Source: a virus
Strand: one strand, 5' to 3'
Length of the DNA stretch: 23,900 nt
IMG/VR virus record: IMGVR_UViG_3300036945_000370
Coordinates: 1-23,900 of that record
Shown piece by piece: positions 2,810 to 23,900 of the stretch. Below the pieces are notes generated by a model, which worked only from the letters and a program-made list of their open reading frames with translations, was not told where the DNA came from and ran no database searches. Made by a program: the position numbers and the translations under genes. Positions within the stretch are counted from its first letter, which is position 1. Every line of letters starts with the position of its first letter.

Positions 2810-4198
2810 ATGAAATATATCACTGAATTATTTTTATCACTGGTAGCACTTTTTTCTCCCGCAGTCTATGCCACTGACACATATAATCATGTAAACAATC
2901 AATTGTCAATTCCAGCAGTAGTGTTGGGAGAAACGATTTATCGTGATGTTGTTATCACAGTTGGCCCTATACTAACAGTGGGTGGTTCTAGCTTAGATTC
3001 CAAGTATCCTGCAAAACCTGCGGATACAATGGACTCTTATGACCCATACAAAAATCAACTTACAATCCCCAGTGTAAAAGCATATGGTTTTGTTTACTAT
3101 GACGTAGTTGTAAATGTAGGAACAGTGCTGTCAGTTAAATCCAGCGAGCCTAAGAACAAGGACATCGCTTGTACAGAACAGTCTTCTATTAGTTCGCTGA
3201 ACGCTAGCCCTATTTACAACTTTACTGGATTGACTAGTAGTTGGAATAATAGGTCTAGTATTCCTGGAGCAGATGATCACGAGAATTTTACAATCGCATT
3301 TTCTAACTATTCTGCTATTGCCAAAGAACGAAATGATATCGCTCTTAAAACTACATTAGTGTCTAAATTATATGGCTGGGCAAATGCTAATGCTTATCAG
3401 GGTAGTAGGTTGTGCTGGTCTCCGACAAGTAACTGGGACCCAACTTGTACACAATGGATAGATCCCAATGGCAATGATTTAAGTGCGATCCAAGATAATA
3501 ACTTTATTATGGAAATGGTTGAATCTTTGCGCAGATCATATAGTTTGCTGTCTGACTGGGCTAAGGTAAGTGAGCCCAGTAAACATGCAAAGATCATGGA
3601 ATGGCTACTCTTTTGGGACGTTAATACTCCTAATCCTGATAATGTATTCTTTGGTCTGGGCATGGGTAGATATCACTGGGAGATCCAGCGTGTTAAAGAA
3701 ACACAGGGTGTAGCGGCAACACTGCCCTTGGTTAATAGAATGATGACTGGTATAACTCCCTTGGTTAATGAGGATGGATCGATTGTTAATCGCACAACCC
3801 GAGGTAATCGTGGTATGTGGTATCATTATTCTAGTTTAAATGAAATTATAACTTCCATATATCTTGCACGTGAAGCAGGAGTTACTGTAGATCCTGTACT
3901 AGAAGCCCGCTTACATAAAGCAGTTGATTTATTTCTGAATACATTGGATAATCCAGATTACATTGTTAAATGGGCAAGTGTGGGTTACAACAATGGTGGT
4001 TCAGGAACAGCGCAAAACTTTAATTTTACTAACTGGTATGACGAACCCTATGCAGGATCCTGGATTTATTTGTATGCTAACTGGTATCCAGAGCAGAACA
4101 ATAGTCTAAGACTAAAACAAAAAGTTCCGTTTGCAACAGCGAAATCAGCAAGTCAGGATAGACAATTTGGTATACCGCTAGGTTGCTTGTTATACTAA
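2810..4198 (+). CDS. Secreted protein with alginate-lyase-like (PL5-type) domain and two N-terminal beta repeats
   Basis: ATG 2810 begins one base after the lipoprotein stop. Residues 1-21 form a signal peptide ending A-V-Y-A. Two tandem repeats follow (residues 25-58 and 77-110), each with NQL(S/T)IP-V ... Y-DVV(I/V)-VG, a module I associate with betaproteobacterial surface proteins. Residues about 155-430 are alpha-helical and tryptophan-rich. The segment from F281 to G357 resembles the catalytic core of family PL5 / Pfam 'Alginate_lyase': an aromatic GRYHW stretch (H289), 'EDGSI' (321-325), and R-GNRG-WYH with R331, R334, Y338 and H339 at places where PL5 enzymes carry Arg and the catalytic Tyr. 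The usual Asn-His pair before the Trp is not clearly kept, so activity or substrate may differ. Likely a polysaccharide lyase acting outside the cytoplasm. The terminator at 4209 closes the unit. Confidence 0.6.
   Translation: MKYITELFLSLVALFSPAVYATDTYNHVNNQLSIPAVVLGETIYRDVVITVGPILTVGGSSLDSKYPAKPADTMDSYDPYKNQLTIPSVKAYGFVYYDVVVNVGTVLSVKSSEPKNKDIACTEQSSISSLNASPIYNFTGLTSSWNNRSSIPGADDHENFTIAFSNYSAIAKERNDIALKTTLVSKLYGWANANAYQGSRLCWSPTSNWDPTCTQWIDPNGNDLSAIQDNNFIMEMVESLRRSYSLLSDWAKVSEPSKHAKIMEWLLFWDVNTPNPDNVFFGLGMGRYHWEIQRVKETQGVAATLPLVNRMMTGITPLVNEDGSIVNRTTRGNRGMWYHYSSLNEIITSIYLAREAGVTVDPVLEARLHKAVDLFLNTLDNPDYIVKWASVGYNNGGSGTAQNFNFTNWYDEPYAGSWIYLYANWYPEQNNSLRLKQKVPFATAKSASQDRQFGIPLGCLLY
2882..3139 (+). 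repeat. Two tandem beta-repeat modules in the PL5-like protein
   Basis: Residues 25-58 (nt 2882-2983) and 77-110 (nt 3038-3139) align without gaps: N-Q-L-(S/T)-I-P-(A/S)-V at the start and D-V-V-(I/V)-x-V-G-x-(I/V)-L-(T/S)-V at the end. The spacing between copies is 52 residues. The DNA of the copies has diverged, so the duplication is old or was inherited. Confidence 0.8.
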
Positions 4199-4992: not shown

Positions 4993-5281
4993 GCAATATA
5001 GAGTCACTAGTCAGACTTTTCGTCTTGAAGGTGATGATCCCAGTATTCCTGATGCGTATGTAGATCCAGTCGCTCTTGCAGAGCTTAAAAAACTGGCAGG
5101 CATAGACTCACTGAGTTTATTAAAACCATATACTGTACAGCCTCCACAGGAAAATATCAGTGATGCTGGCAATGAAAAGGCACAGTTCCAAAAGAAGAAC
5201 AACATTCGTCCAGGCACAGACGAATGGTTTAAGCTATGGTTTGCTAGACCAAAACTAACCGGCGAAGATCCTTTCAAATAA
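4985..5281 (+). CDS. Unknown phage protein, 98 aa, TTG start
   Basis: The frame overlaps the neck gene by 8 bases and the only plausible initiator is TTG at 4985; no ATG or GTG occurs in the following N-terminal region, which already looks like well-formed protein (YRVTSQTFRLEGDDPSIPDA). The overlap suggests translation by re-initiation after the preceding gene. The C-terminal part (about 70-98) carries a conserved-looking RPGTDEWFKLWFARPKLTG segment. The product is mixed charge and soluble, with no known motif. It probably belongs to the virion module by position. If TTG is not used, no alternative start is visible. Confidence 0.65.
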   Translation: MDKQYRVTSQTFRLEGDDPSIPDAYVDPVALAELKKLAGIDSLSLLKPYTVQPPQENISDAGNEKAQFQKKNNIRPGTDEWFKLWFARPKLTGEDPFK

Positions 5282-5282
5282 T

Positions 5283-5813
5283 ATGCTAACCAAAGATTCC
5301 GTGGCAGTGTTGGTAGACTGCTGGGAGACTGAGTACATTGAAACCGATGTCGATCGAGTCTACTCAAACATTATAAAAACATTAAACCGTACCGAAGAAA
5401 TTAAAGCAGTTATACTGGCTTCATATGACGTAGATGATATACCAACAGACAATTTATGGTATATGAATCATACGAAACTGCACAACCATAGTCAAAAAAC
5501 AGCGGATGTAATATTGAATTATGTCAACCCAGACAAATTACAAATAGCAATGACATCATTTGAAGACTTTGCCGGCTTCCTTGATAAGCATAGGGAAATT
5601 GAAAATATATATTTCATGGGGCAAAGTTGGAATAGCTGTATAATGAACCGCCCAATAGGTATAAAGTCCTGCGGTAATATACAACGAAATATTATTATTA
5701 ATCAAAAATGTGTTTGGAACGCAGACACTCATTCTTTGCTGAACATGGAACGTGATTGCCCAGAGGAAAGCTATATCAAATTAAAAGATCACGTTTACCA
5801 ATATATTTGGTGA
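5283..5813 (+). CDS. Unknown protein, 176 aa, possible cysteine-hydrolase-like fold
   Basis: ATG 5283 comes one base after the previous TAA with no strong ribosome site, so coupling is likely. Residues 7-15 (VAVLVDCWE) form a hydrophobic strand ending in Asp12, and residues 108-126 (a strand, then GQSWNSCIMNRPIG) place Cys119 at the head of a helix. An early Asp and a late Cys after a strand recall isochorismatase-like cysteine hydrolases (Asp-Lys-Cys triad), but I see no convincing Lys motif, so this is weak. Residues 30-60 include a second hydrophobic strand (AVILASY). The gene is AT-richer than its neighbours and sits between structural genes and the nucleotide genes. Confidence 0.65.
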   Translation: MLTKDSVAVLVDCWETEYIETDVDRVYSNIIKTLNRTEEIKAVILASYDVDDIPTDNLWYMNHTKLHNHSQKTADVILNYVNPDKLQIAMTSFEDFAGFLDKHREIENIYFMGQSWNSCIMNRPIGIKSCGNIQRNIIINQKCVWNADTHSLLNMERDCPEESYIKLKDHVYQYIW

Positions 5814-5831
5814 CCGTCCCACCATTAATTA

Positions 5832-7026: not shown

Positions 7027-7034
7027 TATAAATA
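7027..7034 (+). promoter_or_regulatory. T4-type late promoter TATAAATA upstream of tail sheath gene
   Basis: TATAAATA is the exact T4 late consensus. It sits at the centre of an inverted repeat ACCAGTAT-AA-ATACTGGT (7022-7039). T4 spacing gives a start near 7040 and a 22-base leader with AAGGAG before ATG 7062. Confidence 0.8.
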
Positions 7035-10110: not shown

Positions 10111-10887
10111 ATGGCGGCATTAACTGACGCTATGAAGTGGTATGGTTTGGGCGCGGACAAGGCTCCGCGCCTAAAGTATCATTTCCAGGTGGCTTTTTAT
10201 AGTTCAAAAGTTACCAGCGCAAGATACATTTATGATTGCGTAAAATCAATAGAACTACCTAAATACAGCATAGATACTGAAGTAGTAAACTCATGGAACG
10301 TGAGACAGCTTGTTCCTACTAAAATAAGTTTTGAGCCTATCAGTATTGCATTTTACGATACACACGATAATAGATTTCAAGATTTCCTTGTAGGGTATCT
10401 TGGCCAAGCATCTAATAGTTTTAGAAAAACCAGCCCAGGTATACGTAACTCCTTTGACGGCTTTGGTTTAAAACTACAAGATTCAGATGCAATTATAGAC
10501 AGAATAGAAATTTCTAGATTCTATGGTGCAGATGCAGAAAGAACAAGTTTAAGTACAGAGAGTATCACTACTCTTTGGAAACCAAAAATAATAGATGTAC
10601 AGCACGATACACTGGATTACAGTGCCAGCGAAGCAGTGTCCTGGCAGATAAGTGTACGCTTTGAAAGTGTTACTTATGAAACAAAAGACGCAGGTGGTGG
10701 TAGAGTTAATAGTTCTAATAGCTCTAATCAAACAACAGAACCTCCTAAAATCTATGGAGCAAGTACTAACCCCGCAGTACAACAAGCAGTAAGGGACGCA
10801 ACAGGCGGCAGACTGGCGCCAAAAACAGCACCAACGTTTGCTGGTGTTGACATCATGGGCAATGTAACAGGATTCCCAGGAGAATAA
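10111..10887 (+). CDS. gp19-like second tail tube-fold protein, 258 aa
   Basis: ATG 10111 follows AAGGAAC nine bases after the gp19 stop, with no separate promoter. Residues 20-190 follow the gp19 plan: RLKYHFQVAFYSS, a 'V-SIELPKYSIDTEVVNSWN' segment, then FEPISIAFYDT and a closing block SWQISVRFESVTYETK. From about 195 the protein becomes a Gly/Ser/Asn/Thr linker (GGGRVNSSNSSNQTTEPP) followed by an extra 45-residue tail ending GFPGE. It is likely a virion protein built on a tube fold, for example a tube initiator/terminator or baseplate-proximal ring; T4 gp48 and gp54 are precedents for tube-like proteins at the baseplate. The exact place is unproved. Confidence 0.75.
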   Translation: MAALTDAMKWYGLGADKAPRLKYHFQVAFYSSKVTSARYIYDCVKSIELPKYSIDTEVVNSWNVRQLVPTKISFEPISIAFYDTHDNRFQDFLVGYLGQASNSFRKTSPGIRNSFDGFGLKLQDSDAIIDRIEISRFYGADAERTSLSTESITTLWKPKIIDVQHDTLDYSASEAVSWQISVRFESVTYETKDAGGGRVNSSNSSNQTTEPPKIYGASTNPAVQQAVRDATGGRLAPKTAPTFAGVDIMGNVTGFPGE

Positions 10888-10888
10888 C

Positions 10889-11167
10889 ATGAACTACGAA
10901 GCAAGTAAATTCGACGTGTTATATGGTAAACTTTTAAATAAAAAAGTGCCACAGTCTCTGGCAAAACAGTTAACAGTTGCAGTACTTAAAATAAGCGACA
11001 CCACTGGCGAAGACGTAGATTCTATAATCAAATATGTCACTGCTAGCGGCCTACGTTTTGACAATCACGTATATGACATACTGAATAATGGTAGATCAAA
11101 TAGTAGCCAAATCGGATTTTTAGATACTGCAAATATACCCAGTGGTATCTCTAGACAGGTTATTTAA
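10889..11167 (+). CDS. Conserved small phage protein, 92 aa
   Basis: ATG 10889 follows CCAGGAG one base after the previous TAA. The product (MNYEASKFDVLYGKLLNKKV ... GRSNSSQIGFLDTANIPSGI) is helical in its first two thirds. The C-terminal 'N-GR-NSSQ-GFLD--NIP' segment is strongly phage-like; I recall similar short proteins next to the head-completion gene of aquatic T4-like phages. The last base of its TAA is the first base of the gp4 ATG, so the two are tightly coupled. It is probably involved in virion assembly, but only the context says so. Confidence 0.75.
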   Translation: MNYEASKFDVLYGKLLNKKVPQSLAKQLTVAVLKISDTTGEDVDSIIKYVTASGLRFDNHVYDILNNGRSNSSQIGFLDTANIPSGISRQVI

Positions 11168-11637
11168 TGGCTTACAATTATACGCAGGGATTTTTTACAC
11201 CCACAAATCCCAGCCGTTATATAGGCAGTAACCAACCCAAATATAGAAGTGGTTGGGAATTAACAGTAATGCGTTTTTGTGACACGCATCCGGCAGTTAT
11301 AGGCTGGGCCAGTGAAAGTTTACGCATACCCTATATAAATCCTTTTACAGGTAAACAAACAACTTACTATCCTGACTTTTTAATAACGTATCAGGATAAA
11401 AATGGCAATAAGATCAGTGAAGTTATTGAGGTCAAGCCACGTAACCAAGCATTATTAGAGCTGTCAAAAACACAGCAAGAAAAAGCCGCAGTAGTATTAA
11501 ACATGGCTAAGTGGGAAGCATGTAGAGCTTGGTGCCAAAAGCATGGATTGAAGTTTAGAATACTCACCGAAGAAGATATATATAATAACTGGCAACCTAA
11601 TAACAAGCCAAAAGCAAAAAGAACACGTAAAAGATGA
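11167..11637 (+). CDS. gp4: Head completion protein gp4 (nuclease-like)
   Basis: 156 residues; ATG 11167 shares a base with the previous stop. Residues 24-90 contain the family signature: KYRSGWELTVMRFCDTHPAV, IPYINPFTGKQTTYYPDF and ISEVIEVKPRNQ. The layout Glu31, Asp70, Glu88-x-Lys90 matches a restriction-endonuclease-type (PD-ExK) nuclease centre. In T4, gp4 (also 50/65) acts after packaging to stabilise or trim DNA at the portal vertex before tail joining. The C-terminus is basic (KAKRTRKR), suited to DNA binding. It overlaps the small terminase gene by four bases (ATGA). Confidence 0.9.
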   Translation: MAYNYTQGFFTPTNPSRYIGSNQPKYRSGWELTVMRFCDTHPAVIGWASESLRIPYINPFTGKQTTYYPDFLITYQDKNGNKISEVIEVKPRNQALLELSKTQQEKAAVVLNMAKWEACRAWCQKHGLKFRILTEEDIYNNWQPNNKPKAKRTRKR

Positions 11638-12140
11638 CAAAAAAACTTGAAGACTTTTTCAATGTAGAGGGCAATGAACCCGACAGAAACGATGTAGAAG
11701 AATTACAGCTACCATTGGTGGCAGACACTGAACCAATGGTAATTCCAGATGTCAGTGAATTGACAGTGCAAATGGATATAGCAGACAGAATTGATCGAGC
11801 ATTACCTCAGGTACGTGGACTTGAAACTGAAGACAAGGATCTAGACGACTACGCTCAACAGGCCATGGATAGTTTTGGTAGACTCATGGATCTAGGCTTT
11901 AACATGGATGATAGAAATGCTGGTAAAATATTTGAAGTTGCCAGTACCATGATGGGCAATGCTATTACTGCTAAAACGGCCAAGCTGGATAAAAAGCTAA
12001 AAATGGTGGAATTACAGCTTAAAGCGGCTAGACTAGCACAGACGCAAAAGCCCGAGGAAGAATCACAGCAAAACAATGGTGAATTGAATACTGACCGCAA
12101 TGCTATATTGAATCTCATTAATCAGAACATGAAGAAGTGA
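11634..12140 (+). CDS. gp16: Small terminase subunit gp16
   Basis: 168 residues; ATG 11634 overlaps the gp4 stop. The acidic N-terminus (1-60) precedes the helical hairpin diagnostic of gp16: DDYAQQAMDSFGRLMDLGF (about 71-89), then AGKIFEVASTMMGNAITAK and DKKLKMVELQLKAARLAQ (about 124-141), matching the central coiled-coil of T4-like small terminases that oligomerises into a ring. The subunit regulates gp17 ATPase/nuclease activity and marks packaging DNA. The C-terminus is Gln/Asn-rich, ending in a short helix. It lies two genes before gp17, whereas T4 has 16 and 17 adjacent. Confidence 0.88.
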   Translation: MTKKLEDFFNVEGNEPDRNDVEELQLPLVADTEPMVIPDVSELTVQMDIADRIDRALPQVRGLETEDKDLDDYAQQAMDSFGRLMDLGFNMDDRNAGKIFEVASTMMGNAITAKTAKLDKKLKMVELQLKAARLAQTQKPEEESQQNNGELNTDRNAILNLINQNMKK

Positions 12141-12146
12141 TAAATA
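12139..12146 (+). promoter_or_regulatory. Late promoter GATAAATA in a palindrome
   Basis: GATAAATA lies within the perfect 15-base inverted repeat GATAAAT-A-ATTTATC (12139-12153) at the end of gp16. T4 spacing puts the start near 12152, leaving a 12-base leader with GGAGA before ATG 12164. Confidence 0.6.
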
Positions 12147-12163
12147 ATTTATCGGAGAAAAGA

Positions 12164-12769
12164 ATGTCAACCCTATTAGAATACTTAGAATCAGTTAAAA
12201 AGCAACACAAGGTTAGAATCAAATTAGCCTGCGGTTGCAGTAACGAGATACTTGATAAAATTGAACGTCACTTAGAAAAGTATGACGTAGAGCAAGTAAC
12301 TGCTCCACAAAAGACTATACTACAAAAGCGTCCTTTAGATTTCCCGCAGTTAGATCAAGCAGAAGTTTATATTATTGACTTCACTGCTAATCTACCTGTT
12401 AGCTTACAACAGTTGCACAGTGAACTTGCAGTTATGTTGCGTGTACCAGAAGGTCTTGTAGTAGTTCGTAGTCCTGAAGATCCACGTGAAACACAGGATG
12501 AAGCAGGTAAGACTTTAGCTACAGAACCATTGCTAACAGCAGAACTAACAGCAACTCCTGCCAAAGAAGAAACATTTGGTGACAAGTTCAACACTAGCCT
12601 GTTAAAAGAATTAAAAGCGTTATCAGACAAGCGCAAAGAAGATTTGAAACATACAAAAATTGCAGACCCAGATGTGCCTGCAACTGAACCAGAAATCGGA
12701 GACAGTGCAAGCACAAATAAAACTAGCCCTGTACGTAAATTTACAGCCCCAGTGGGTAAAGGAAAATAA
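12164..12769 (+). CDS. Conserved phage protein, 201 aa, probably virion-associated
   Basis: ATG 12164 is preferred because CGGAGAAAAG precedes it; an in-frame GTG at 12137 would place the late promoter inside the gene. The first 110 residues form a compact domain (KVRIKLACGCSNEILDKIER, 15-34; TILQKRPLDFPQLDQAEVYI, about 51-70; LPVSLQQLHSEL, about 76-87; VPEGLVVVRSPEDPRE, about 94-109), a pattern I recall from hypothetical proteins beside the terminases of marine T4-like phages. The rest (110-201) is a Thr/Glu/Lys-rich, low-complexity extension ending in a basic tail. Function unknown; the late promoter suggests structure or assembly. Confidence 0.78.
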   Translation: MSTLLEYLESVKKQHKVRIKLACGCSNEILDKIERHLEKYDVEQVTAPQKTILQKRPLDFPQLDQAEVYIIDFTANLPVSLQQLHSELAVMLRVPEGLVVVRSPEDPRETQDEAGKTLATEPLLTAELTATPAKEETFGDKFNTSLLKELKALSDKRKEDLKHTKIADPDVPATEPEIGDSASTNKTSPVRKFTAPVGKGK

Positions 12770-12771
12770 TC

Positions 12772-13803
12772 ATGAACTTTGAAACTATTCTAAGAAAACT
12801 AAACGCCATTGGTGGCATGCAAGGTGCTGTCACTGAAGAAAAGAAACCAGATGCTGACAAAGACGGTGTACCTGATTGGGCTGATAAAAAGCCCGGTGCA
12901 GATGACACTGAAAGCAAAGAAGATAAAAAAGAAAAAGCCAACGAAGACATCATGAACGTAATGCGTGGTCTTAAAGCTATTCAAGAAGCTGAAGAGTGTT
13001 CTGTATGTGGTCACACACCTTGTGACTGCGAAGAAGAAAAAGTCGATGAAGCTCTTAATACGAGCAAGTTGGCAGATACAATGGGTATAGATGCACAACG
13101 TTTACGTGGTGCAGTTGCCCGTGCTACAGCAGGTAAACAGACACGTAGTGATATAATGATGTTGTCTGATGCATTTGTTAAGTTATTAACTAACCCAGAC
13201 GATACAGCAATACAAGCGATTGCTAATTTAATTAAGTCAGGTAACTCTGCTTCTAAGCCAGAACAAGAACCAGGTAACATGGTTATGAAACAAGAAGGCA
13301 ATGAGTTCAGCGGCGCCTTACAGGCAGCCAAAGATGCTGGTGAAGAAGAATTCGAAGTTGGTGGTAAGAAGTATAAAGTAAACGAATGTGGTGACATGGA
13401 AATGAGTCCTATGACTGCAATGGCAGCCGCCGCTGGCGCTCCTGAAGAAAGCAAGGATCGTTATACATTAACTATCACTAAAGCAGACGGTAGCACATTA
13501 AACGCTACAACAGATATGCCACAGGATATCGCTAACTTGATCAAGCTAGCAGGTATTCCTGGTACAACTTCTGTAGCAAATGCGCCTGCACAACCAGAAG
13601 CTGATGTAGAAGAAGCATTTGGAAACACTCCAGCGCAAACACAGGAACGTGAACCACGTTCTTTTGGTGATACAAAGAACTGGGGACTACCTGGTACAGC
13701 TAGAGCAGACGTTCGTTATACACCACCTCAACAAGGTGACAATCCAATGAAAGAAGAAGTTGGAATGTTTGAGGAATACAAAGTATTTAAAGAGAGTAAA
13801 TGA
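12772..13803 (+). CDS. Acidic modular phage protein with Ca- and Zn-type motifs, 343 aa
   Basis: ATG 12772 two bases after the previous stop, with AAAGGAAA upstream. The protein is acidic, Ala/Glu/Lys-rich and low in hydrophobics. Residues 27-39 read DADKDGVPDWADK, a calcium-binding loop like thrombospondin type 3/dockerin repeats. Residues 76-86 read C-SV-CGHTP-C-D-C, a compact four-cysteine cluster suited to one zinc. Residues about 185-210 hold EEEFEVGGKKYKVNECGDME, then an Ala-rich helix. The composition suits a prohead core or internal head protein, and position between the terminase genes fits, but no family is certain. It overlaps gp17 by four bases (ATGA). Confidence 0.75.
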   Translation: MNFETILRKLNAIGGMQGAVTEEKKPDADKDGVPDWADKKPGADDTESKEDKKEKANEDIMNVMRGLKAIQEAEECSVCGHTPCDCEEEKVDEALNTSKLADTMGIDAQRLRGAVARATAGKQTRSDIMMLSDAFVKLLTNPDDTAIQAIANLIKSGNSASKPEQEPGNMVMKQEGNEFSGALQAAKDAGEEEFEVGGKKYKVNECGDMEMSPMTAMAAAAGAPEESKDRYTLTITKADGSTLNATTDMPQDIANLIKLAGIPGTTSVANAPAQPEADVEEAFGNTPAQTQEREPRSFGDTKNWGLPGTARADVRYTPPQQGDNPMKEEVGMFEEYKVFKESK

Positions 13804-20989: not shown

Positions 20990-22069
20990 ATGGCTAATGT
21001 GACAGTTTTTAGCGGCAAGTATCGTAACATCGATATTCGTAACAGTACCTTCCGTCTTGTGCAAGATGTCCGTGAAGGTACCAAAGGTATGTACATCACA
21101 GTAGAAGACAACGGCAGTCTGGGACAGGGCGAAGGCAAAGAAGTTCGCATTCGTATCGCAGATCGCGATGACATCACAGTGTCAGGTAAAAGTGTGGCAG
21201 ATATGTCGGATACGGAAATCCGTAAAACTAACAAAGACGACAATGTGTTGACCATTGTTAAACCCAAAGAGCCAGAAGTCTATACCGAAAGTGAAGAAGC
21301 CGCTATTGAACGTATTCGTGAACGTTTTGACATTCTAGATCAAATGGCAGAAGGTACCACCACCGGTGCTGTCCGTGCTATGATTGTTAGTGGCCCTCCT
21401 GGCGTAGGTAAATCCTTTGGTGTTGAAAAGGTGCTTGAGCAAGCCAGTTTGTTTGACAAGATGGCTCAGCGTAAGAATCGTTTTGAAGTTGTTAAAGGTG
21501 CGATGAGTGCTATTGGTTTGTACTGCAAACTCTTTCAATTCGCAGACGAAGGTAATGTGCTAGTGTTCGACGACTGTGACAGTATCTTGCTTGACGACTT
21601 GTCACTGAACATCTTGAAAGCGGCATTGGATAGTTCTAAGAAGCGTACAATTTCTTGGAACATTGATAGCAATATGTTGCGTCGCGAAGGTGTCCCAGAT
21701 CGTTTTGATTTTAAAGGTAGTGTGATCTTTATCACTAACATCAAGTTCGAGCACGTTCGTAGCAAGAAGTTGCGTGATCACTTGGATGCTTTGGAAAGTC
21801 GTTGTCACTATTTGGACCTTACAATGGACACTCAGCGTGACAAGTATCTGCGTATCAAACAGATTGTTCGTGACGGCATGTTGAACAGTTATGATTTTGA
21901 AGCAGGCGCTGAAAACGACATCGTCGAATATGTCTGGGAACAGCGTAATCGTCTGCGTGAACTGAGTTTGCGTACAGTTCTTAAGATTGCAGACCTGCGT
22001 AAAATGAGTGCTCACAACTGGAAAAAGTTGGCAGAAACTACAATTTTGAAACGTGCAGAAGTGTGCTAA
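20990..22069 (+). CDS. AAA-family ATPase, 359 aa
   Basis: ATG 20990 with ACAGGAG. Residues 1-90 form a beta-rich N-terminal domain (TVFSGKYRNIDIRNSTFRLV; MYITVEDN; KEVRIRIADRDDI). The AAA core follows: Walker A GPPGVGKS at 135-142, Walker B LVFDDCD at 191-197 and sensor-1 Asn250 in VIFITN. Basic residues in SRCHYLDLTMDTQRDKYLRI (about 270-290) and the helical C-terminus (RNRLRELSLRTVLKIADLRK) act as the lid and arginine-finger region. The substrate is unknown. Similar ATPases occur as singletons in many phages; remodelling of a protein or nucleoprotein complex is likely. It is monocistronic: own early promoter before it, terminator at 22079 after it. Confidence 0.88.
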   Translation: MANVTVFSGKYRNIDIRNSTFRLVQDVREGTKGMYITVEDNGSLGQGEGKEVRIRIADRDDITVSGKSVADMSDTEIRKTNKDDNVLTIVKPKEPEVYTESEEAAIERIRERFDILDQMAEGTTTGAVRAMIVSGPPGVGKSFGVEKVLEQASLFDKMAQRKNRFEVVKGAMSAIGLYCKLFQFADEGNVLVFDDCDSILLDDLSLNILKAALDSSKKRTISWNIDSNMLRREGVPDRFDFKGSVIFITNIKFEHVRSKKLRDHLDALESRCHYLDLTMDTQRDKYLRIKQIVRDGMLNSYDFEAGAENDIVEYVWEQRNRLRELSLRTVLKIADLRKMSAHNWKKLAETTILKRAEVC

Positions 22070-22078
22070 ACTAACCAA

Positions 22079-22110
22079 AAAACCCAATTAATTGACGTTA
22101 ATTGGGTTTT
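22079..22110 (+). terminator. Terminator whose loop is the next promoter's -35 box
   Basis: AAAACCCAATTAA (22079-22091) and TTAATTGGGTTTT (22098-22110) form a perfect 13-bp stem ending in TTTT. The six-base loop is exactly TTGACG, the -35 of the promoter driving the subtilase gene. It closes the AAA ATPase transcript. Confidence 0.88.
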
Positions 22111-22120
22111 ATGTTATAAT
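22092..22120 (+). promoter_or_regulatory. Early-type promoter of the subtilase gene
   Basis: TTGACG 22092-22097, extension TTAATT (one change from the family TAAATT), 17-bp spacer, TATAAT 22115-22120; ATG 28 bases on with AAAGGAA. The change in the extension completes the terminator stem, as if selected for the double role. Confidence 0.88.
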
Positions 22121-22148
22121 AATTACTTAAACAGTAAAAGGAATTCAA

Positions 22149-23900
22149 ATGAAATTCAAACTAACTCTTGTAGCAGTGGCAGTTTCTACTCTAGCAGTAA
22201 GTGCGCAGGCGCAGGTATTTGCTAACAGAGAAGCAGAAACACAGACAAAATATCTGACAGCAATCGGCGCACCTCAGGCCTGGGCACGTGGTATCACAGG
22301 CAAAGGTGTTATCATTGGTATTGTTGACAACGGCTTTGATGCTAATCACACAGACATTAAAAAGAATGTTATTAGTGTGACTAATAATACTAAACTAAAA
22401 ACAGTGGCAGGTGTTCACGGTACACAGATGGCAAGTATTGCCGCAGGTACATTAGACGGCAATGGTACAGTTGGTGTGGCTCCGGATGCTAAACTGGTAT
22501 TGTTTCAAGCAACTAGTTCAATTAGTTCGTCTACAGGTTTGGCAAGTACAGGCATCGACATGGAGGCAGTTTATAGAAGTATAACACTGGCAGAAAAGGC
22601 AGGCGCCAGCGTTATTAATTTGAGCTTGGGCTCAAACTTTGATAATACATTTAAGACAACTACAGTAGAAGTCAGTCCCGGTATCTTCCGTGCTCCTAAC
22701 AACTATAACAGTGCAGTAACAGGCGGCAAGAGTTATCTTTATGGTACTTCGATGAAAAGTGTGGCATCCTTTGCTAATTCAACAAGTTCTGCGGTTATTG
22801 TAGCGGCATCAGGTAATGCAGGTGCAAAGTATACGCAGATGCCAGCGGCATTTGCAACACAGACAGACGCTAATGGCAATTTGCTTATGGGCGGTCGTGT
22901 ACTAATCGTTGGTAACGTGGTAGGTGATGGCAAAGGTGGTTGGACAATGAACGCCACTAGTAACCAAGCCGGCACTCTTTGTAACAGCTTTACTGGTAAT
23001 GTATGTAACGACAAATACTATGTCAAAGACTTTTATGTAGTGGCTCCTGGTACAGGTATGTGGGGCGCGGTTCCTGATGCAGGTAGAACTGCCGCAGGCA
23101 TTAAGGCAGGTGGTACTAACGGTATTGGTGCAGTCACAGGCACAAGCCCAGCGGCCGCAGTGGTTAGTGGTGGTGTTGCATTGTTGAAACAGGCCTGGCC
23201 ACAACTTAGCTCTGCACAGATTGTTCACCTGGTTAAGACAACTGCCACAGACATGGGTGCCAAAGGTGTAGACGAAGTTTATGGTTGGGGTATGGTAAAC
23301 TTTGACAAAGCTACACAACCACAAGGTTTGCTGACTATTGCTAACTTTAAAGGTTATAACAAAGCTATTCCTTTAACAGCTTCTGGTGTTGCATCTAGCG
23401 GCAGTGCTAGTATCAAAACAAGTAGTGTGCTACAAAACATTCAAGGCTTGGACAGTTACAATCGCAACTATACATTGGATATGACTAAGGCAACTGTGGC
23501 TAATCCAGTAGCAACTTACCGAGCTTCTAGTTCTTACTTGGCATTGAGTCCTGCTAACTACAGCGAAATGTCTGTGCCAGTAAACGAAAACTACAGCATT
23601 AAAATGATGCAAAGTCAGGCAGGTAATGCCAGCGAAGTTACTTACACTGAACAAGACGCTAGCTATAGTGTGCAGTTTGGTGCAATGACTGAAAAGTCGG
23701 GCTTCCTTGGTAACTATGGCGCTGGTGCTTTGGCATTTGGTGATAGCTCTACCAGTTATTTGCAATTTGGTACAGAACACAAGTTTGGTGACATGCAGGT
23801 ATTTGGTAGCTATGGTTTTGGTGTTACTCGTACAGGAAGTGTGGCAGATTCCATGATCCAACTTGGTAACCGCATTAGCAGTGACACTTGGAGACTGGGC
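22149..23900 (+). CDS. Exported subtilisin-like serine protease (S8), partial, possible autotransporter
   Basis: The frame starts at ATG 22149 (AAAAGGAA upstream) and stays open for all 584 codons to the right edge. Residues 1-21 are a signal peptide ending S-A-Q-A. The S8 triad is complete: Asp60 in IIGIVDNGFD, His90 in GVHGTQMAS and Ser333 in GTSPAAAVVSGG, with the oxyanion Asn223 in AASGN. 'GVAPDAKLVLFQ' and 'VINLSLGS' are further S8 hallmarks. Cys278/Cys286 could form a disulfide. After the catalytic domain (to about 385) comes a Ser/Ala-rich beta-rich region with alternating strands (GAGALAFGDSSTSYLQFG; MQVFGSYGFG) like the C-terminal part of NalP/AprN-type proteases with an outer-membrane barrel; the end is cut off. 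It probably acts outside the cytoplasm. Such proteases are rare in phages, and the gene is likely host-derived. Confidence 0.85.
   Translation, partial: MKFKLTLVAVAVSTLAVSAQAQVFANREAETQTKYLTAIGAPQAWARGITGKGVIIGIVDNGFDANHTDIKKNVISVTNNTKLKTVAGVHGTQMASIAAGTLDGNGTVGVAPDAKLVLFQATSSISSSTGLASTGIDMEAVYRSITLAEKAGASVINLSLGSNFDNTFKTTTVEVSPGIFRAPNNYNSAVTGGKSYLYGTSMKSVASFANSTSSAVIVAASGNAGAKYTQMPAAFATQTDANGNLLMGGRVLIVGNVVGDGKGGWTMNATSNQAGTLCNSFTGNVCNDKYYVKDFYVVAPGTGMWGAVPDAGRTAAGIKAGGTNGIGAVTGTSPAAAVVSGGVALLKQAWPQLSSAQIVHLVKTTATDMGAKGVDEVYGWGMVNFDKATQPQGLLTIANFKGYNKAIPLTASGVASSGSASIKTSSVLQNIQGLDSYNRNYTLDMTKATVANPVATYRASSSYLALSPANYSEMSVPVNENYSIKMMQSQAGNASEVTYTEQDASYSVQFGAMTEKSGFLGNYGAGALAFGDSSTSYLQFGTEHKFGDMQVFGSYGFGVTRTGSVADSMIQLGNRISSDTWRLG

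Follow-up and report, generated by a model that had tools for sequence, protein, structure and literature searches.

Gene content at the end of the record

The stretch analysed here, called the window, is the entire virus record IMGVR_UViG_3300036945_000370, 23,900 bases in length. Its last open reading frame (ORF), at 22149..23900 on the plus strand, encodes a putative exported subtilase of peptidase family S8 and is the subject of this report. The ORF stays open up to the last base and encodes 584 residues. Since the window is the complete record, it is the contig end that cuts the gene short, not a stop codon. The following features were assigned to it.

22149..23900, plus strand: S8 subtilase gene, first 584 of ∼694 codons; the 3′ end lies outside the record
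22149..22214, plus strand: putative Sec-type signal peptide over residues 1-22, lacking a lipobox cysteine (read from the sequence; relatives have it at the same position)
22299..23291, plus strand: Peptidase_S8 catalytic domain, the putative passenger, residues 51-381 (PF00082, E 1.3e-31)
22326..22328, plus strand: catalytic Asp60 (alignment of relatives)
22416..22418, plus strand: catalytic His90 (alignment of relatives)
23145..23147, plus strand: catalytic Ser333, in GTSPAAA (alignment of relatives)
23319..23558, plus strand: linker with motif LDSYNRNYTLDM, which also stands between protease and barrel of bacterial homologues
23592..23900, plus strand: predicted first part of a C-terminal β-barrel, about residues 482-584 (AlphaFold model of the relative L005; VIA-align to autotransporter translocators)

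The PF00082 profile was matched over its whole length with 110 bits against a cut-off of 21.8. It was the only profile matched, and no match to PF03420 (S77) was found. Relatives were collected from viral contigs in two rounds, giving 16 and then 37 loci. Asp60, His90 and Ser333 were invariant in 28 of 28 aligned relatives, as were Asn223, which belongs to an oxyanion-type SGN motif, and the pair Cys278/Cys286, which fits an exported protein. Residues 1-22 (MKFKLTLVAVAVSTLAVSAQAQ), read by eye, comprise a basic n-region, a hydrophobic h-region and an AQA c-region. A full-length model of L005, a complete relative 86% identical to the window protein, had a subtilisin fold (Foldseek E 1e-20, target template modelling (TM) score 0.85). 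The passenger of the Ssp autotransporter (8e7f) was among the structure matches of this model and also among the sequence matches. By profile, ordered Asp-His-Ser triad and predicted fold, the window gene belongs to peptidase family S8. A preliminary description, made from the nucleotide sequence, had placed the triad at exactly these three residues, which was borne out, and a signal peptide at the N-terminus, with which the reading of residues 1-22 by eye agrees.

A predicted outer-membrane barrel in complete relatives

The closest relative, L002, is 96% identical to the window protein and is likewise incomplete, ending at residue 671. Most complete relatives have 676-712 residues, the more distant L054-L055 900-1000. 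All aligned complete relatives ended in Phe, or in Trp in L054 and L055; the end of the window protein itself is outside the record. The last 306 residues of L005 were modelled alone with AlphaFold from a 29-sequence alignment. The model reached a predicted local distance difference test (pLDDT) score of 87.5 and a predicted TM score (pTM) of 0.83, and contained 12 long strands across model residues 94-303, that is, in the last ∼215 residues of the protein. VIA-align, a second structural aligner, was run on the PDB barrels obtained with Foldseek and gave the clearer result. The L005 barrel aligned with EspP at Z 12.9 (up to 206 residues, 3.2 Å), EstA at 12.7, BrkA at 12.3 and NalP at 12.2; Hbp and AIDA-I were also near the top of the list, and the six autotransporter translocators spanned Z 11.6-12.9. 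The EspP and NalP alignments began ahead of the barrel, at model residues 24-27, and included the linker. Full-length relatives are thus predicted to carry a C-terminal 12-strand barrel of the outer-membrane type. The preliminary description had called the C-terminal half strand-rich, which is correct, and had named in advance a terminal barrel with an aromatic last residue as the feature to look for; the predicted 12 strands and the Phe or Trp end were both seen in the complete relatives.

Several results weigh against reading this barrel as an autotransporter translocator. Roughly half of the barrel strands are missing from the window gene itself, as they lie past the contig end. When the barrel alone was compared with the PDB by Foldseek, outer-membrane barrels were matched weakly (best E 2e-3). 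KdgM-type porins aligned with the L005 barrel as well as the autotransporters did (Z 14.0 and 13.2), and because of these equal scores export through the barrel is unproven. Pfam searches detected no autotransporter β-domain in any of the 29 barrel rows at E 0.1, nor in L005 and four others at E 5; bacterial S8-linked homologues were equally without a match. A sequence search of the PDB with the barrel profile gave no match up to E 10. The hydrophobic alternation of the predicted strands was weak (p 0.21, then 0.06 and 0.02 with later statistics). Since no Pfam family matches it, the barrel family appears to be undescribed in Pfam. A match to the Pfam autotransporter family is usual, not essential, for such proteins; as judged from its sequence, the window protein is one that would work like an autotransporter and is not filed in that sequence family.

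The porin scores are also what would be expected if the barrel were a mere outer-membrane anchor, with the protease facing the periplasm, where it would degrade proteins of the host's envelope or defences while the infection runs. Neither a defined autochaperone nor a pore helix was recognised. However, the order signal, protease, linker and 12-strand barrel is the architecture of subtilase autotransporters, and the EspP and NalP alignments extend into the linker. We consider the periplasmic arrangement unlikely and the architecture very probably of the autotransporter type. Since Pfam does not recognise the barrel, the term autotransporter-type, used in the preliminary description, is based on the domain architecture, the predicted fold and the homology of the barrel to those behind bacterial S8 proteases (see below).

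Probable terminator hairpin and promoter ahead of the S8 gene

Three elements were found directly ahead of the S8 gene.

22079..22110, plus strand: hairpin with a 14-bp stem and a 4-nt loop, followed by T-rich sequence (RNA fold and covariation)
22092..22120, plus strand: putative sigma70-type promoter TTGACG-17-TATAAT (shared motif, also kept ahead of S8 in many relatives)
22138..22142, plus strand: putative ribosome binding site AAGGA (sequence reading)

The window hairpin folded at −15.1 kcal/mol with z −4.7, within a range of −4.7 to −6.9. In the 16 loci aligned, 96% of cells were paired and 5 of the 14 pairs had changed on both sides. The covariation score was 0.255 against 0.142 in shuffles, and none of 500 shuffles scored as high. 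The hairpin is probably the terminator of the upstream AAA gene. The −35 box TTGACG sits in its loop and 3′ arm, and TATAAT lies further downstream; 22079-22120 thus reads as a composite element, a terminator together with the −35 box of the next gene, which is kept by compensatory changes across phages.

Six copies of the pattern TTGACGT(A/T)AATT-N11-TATAAT were counted in the window (676, 954, 19956, 20474, 20928 and 22092), of which five stand ahead of genes other than S8. With a relaxed pattern 24 matches were counted versus 11.8 expected, a number reached in none of 100 shuffles. For the sheath gene, a T4-late-like TATAAATA was found instead, at 7027. The preliminary description had the S8 gene driven by the same cassette as other genes of the phage, and at the level of the motif this is so. 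The promoter motif of its own, together with the hairpin, suggests that S8 is expressed early or constitutively and independently of the AAA gene, the timing being inferred.

Exchange of the catalytic domain between phages

The relatives L005 and L014 were compared along the locus. DNA identity was 89-95% at the end of the AAA gene, fell to 37-69% in the catalytic part and rose again to 81-92% in the barrel. At the protein level the protease was 37-55% identical and the linker and barrel 85-95%. In the protease tree L049 grouped with L014/L016 (100/100), whereas the barrels of L049 and L014/L016 fell in different clades. By the approximately unbiased (AU) test the barrel data rejected the protease groupings (p 2e-82 and 1e-4) and the protease data rejected the barrel clade (p 3e-8); the tested groups were named after the trees had been seen, so these p values are optimistic, and the DNA identity profile agrees with them. 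The conflicting catalytic and barrel trees indicate that the passenger was exchanged between phage lineages. The ratio of nonsynonymous to synonymous substitution rates (dN/dS) was ∼0.1 in the catalytic and barrel halves alike, which is purifying selection. From these comparisons the S8-barrel protein appears to be functional and modular, its cutting half being the most variable part.

The window and L002 are near-identical outside S8. Within it, their replacements are clustered at residues 490-527 (23616-23729), in the first barrel strands, a pattern that looks like the exchange of a short tract.

Bacterial homologues and known subtilases

Bacterial homologues were searched in 398 genomes of one phylum, chosen as that of the alphaproteobacterial locus L023. 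Many S8 proteins were found, and several of 770-890 residues reach far beyond the protease domain. Those of Pseudomonadota designated L067-L077 have the same domain order as the phage proteins, and their C-terminal regions share with them both the LDxYxRxY motif in the linker and a Phe as last residue. The phage barrels and the bacterial S8-linked C-terminal barrels were homologous by hhalign (probability 99.8%, E 1.8e-28). The bacterial proteins differ in a longer linker and barrel (391-438 residues versus 306 in the phage) and often in a lipobox or Pro-rich N-terminus, and their identity to the phage proteins is distant. In the barrel tree, the 19 main-group phage rows formed a single clade (100/99) separate from the bacterial rows. 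This homology, together with the separate phage clade, identifies the gene as the phage branch of a wider S8-barrel family.

Compared with the subtilase autotransporters NalP (Neisseria meningitidis), SphB1 (Bordetella), Ssp (Serratia marcescens) and the EprS type, the window protein and its relatives have in common an S8 passenger and, as predicted, an N-terminal export signal and a C-terminal 12-strand barrel. Unlike them, the window protein is phage-encoded, shorter (694 residues) and without a long passenger extension; its barrel belongs to a sequence family absent from Pfam, and its passenger is shuffled between phages. Two more specific assignments were rejected. The EprS autotransporter equivalog NF051851 scored 44.8 bits with the truncated query and 40.9 with complete L005 against a cut-off of 1700, and the type VII mycosin model TIGR03921 scored 118.8 bits against 278.75. 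Some subtilase autotransporters, such as Ssp, are released and cytotoxic (PMC9977779), and the match of L005 to the Ssp passenger would suit a released protease whose extracellular targets are rivals, predators or bacteriocins. No release site was identified in the phage protein, however, nor a link to any such target, and this role seems improbable.

One family member is evidently already in the databases. The barrel model matched A0A6J5TBB6, from an uncultured Caudovirales phage, with a TM-score of 0.94 and 38% identity over 319 columns; the name of that protein, 'Peptidase S8/S53 domain containing protein', gives the S8 peptidase alone and no autotransporter assignment. No full-length relative was found among 50,697 annotated phage records. 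The subtilases of Bacillus phages Goe3, Goe8, BSP12 and BSP14 and of Moorella phage MTATph1 are likewise S8 proteins of large phages, but their hosts are Gram-positive and the match is confined to ∼120-210 catalytic residues at 28-36% identity, with the barrel unmatched. The plasmid collection gave no match at E 1e-10.

On the phage-like contigs L054-L057, S8-barrel relatives of 900-1000 residues have a lipobox and, at the N-terminus, a long extension rich in Ser and Thr. Lipidation is also reported for NalP and SphB1. The locus L022 (contig NZDU01000042.1) belongs to a genome labelled Pacearchaeota, yet the S8-barrel protein it encodes is of a kind typical of diderm bacteria or their phages; this contig is probably mis-binned.

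The carrier phage and its cargo site

The TerL of the window is 56% identical to those of the Pseudomonas jumbo phages PA5oct, MIJ3 and Paride. The AAA protein also indicates PA5oct-type kinship, and the best matches of the sheath protein were from PA5oct-type and other jumbo phages. By these genes the carrier is a T4-like jumbo phage related to Pseudomonas phage PA5oct, which has no S8 gene behind its own AAA homologue. Relatives of the window gene were found on contigs of up to 233 kb. The habitat of the group is presumably freshwater, going by the preliminary description and by an impression from the sources. The window contains no tRNA gene that could point to the host, and a host among the Burkholderiales is a guess.

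The site of the S8 gene is marked by its conserved upstream neighbour.

20990..22069, plus strand: AAA ATPase (phrog_1250)

The order TerL, gp32, UvsX, AAA, S8, UvsW was kept in nearly all loci of the group as far as these extend. Occupancy of the site was surveyed by a search with the AAA protein among loci having enough downstream sequence. S8 followed AAA directly in 17 loci. In L087, L092, L093, L107 and L108, whose AAA proteins are 85-89% identical to that of the window, AAA was followed by the UvsW helicase with no S8 between. In L094 a predicted secreted lipoprotein resembling dienelactone hydrolases (5042-5815) occupied the S8 position. As some close relatives lack S8 and one has a different secreted hydrolase in its place, the gene is cargo. 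In L006 a putative alginate-lyase-like lipoprotein (10114-11268) lies directly behind S8 and is 53% identical to another protein of the window.

2810-4198, plus strand: putative secreted alginate-lyase-like protein (PF05426 E 6e-5, just above the cut-off), with two surface-type repeats at the N-terminus

The latter had no match in annotated phages. On a single contig, L098, the S8 gene (67-873) stood upstream of AAA rather than downstream.

The secreted hydrolases of L006 and L094 at the same site would accord with nutrient acquisition, in which a surface protease digests environmental protein and supplies amino acids to a cell building a very large genome. Against this, the catalytic domain has been replaced repeatedly while its neighbours remain ∼74-95% identical, which suits a changing target better than bulk digestion, and we hold this explanation, too, to be unlikely.

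A structural or lysis protease of the phage is a far weaker candidate. The genome is T4-like and the gene does have replication and packaging genes nearby, but its product has a putative signal peptide and a predicted barrel, falls outside the phage structural-protease family, and is absent both from close relatives that retain the surrounding genes and, at full length, from the annotated phage records. A separate T4-type prohead protease (S77) is encoded elsewhere in four of the five long relatives, so S8 is dispensable for capsid maturation. The prohead or lysis assignment, which the preliminary description had also set aside, was rejected as very improbable. That a bacterial gene was joined to the phage contig by misassembly, for which the existence of bacterial homologues might speak, was rejected as having almost no likelihood, since most of the ∼30 contigs, which come from many metagenomes, show this arrangement of genes again, and since the phage sequences group in a single clade that excludes the bacterial ones.

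Proposed role of the protease

On balance, the gene probably encodes an autotransporter-type subtilase that is anchored in the outer membrane, displayed on the surface of the infected cell and carried as cargo by a T4-like jumbo lineage. In the proposed mechanism, the phage promoter would drive the S8 gene early in infection, the protein would be exported by Sec, and its barrel would be inserted by the β-barrel assembly machinery (BAM). The protease would then stay on display at the infected cell's surface, or be released from it, and cut surface or nearby proteins. Receptors or pili might in this way be trimmed, so that competing phages are excluded and progeny are kept from sticking.

As to the benefit, remodelling of the infected cell's surface is our tentative preference. 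Two points favour it. The passenger has been swapped repeatedly, as if in response to protein targets that vary, and an anchor that stays the same while the protease on it changes suggests that such a varying target lies on or outside the cell. In addition, NalP and SphB1 cut surface proteins (PMC9977779). More doubtful is an extended version, in which the lineage would own a display system consisting of a conserved barrel, a signal, an insulated promoter and exchangeable protease passengers. Such a system would strip receptors or appendages and exclude rival phages, with the other secreted hydrolases as alternative cargo.

In the open-access literature, no account of phage-encoded autotransporters or of S8 proteases in jumbo phages was found. 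If the display reading is true, jumbo phages would, beyond taking over the cell interior, also re-equip the outer surface of the host with a swappable enzyme, which would give uncultured aquatic phages a way to exclude superinfection or remodel the surface that can be tested directly. The natural chimaeras of passenger and barrel offer material for studies of outer-membrane protein secretion.

Other observations

The 231-kb record of L044 contains a second S8 gene, L064. It is different, encodes ∼535 residues without a signal peptide and lies beside a repetitive tail-like gene. In L053, a phage-borne gene for an IscU-like iron-sulphur scaffold protein (11495-12901) is apparently interrupted by an intein-like insertion.
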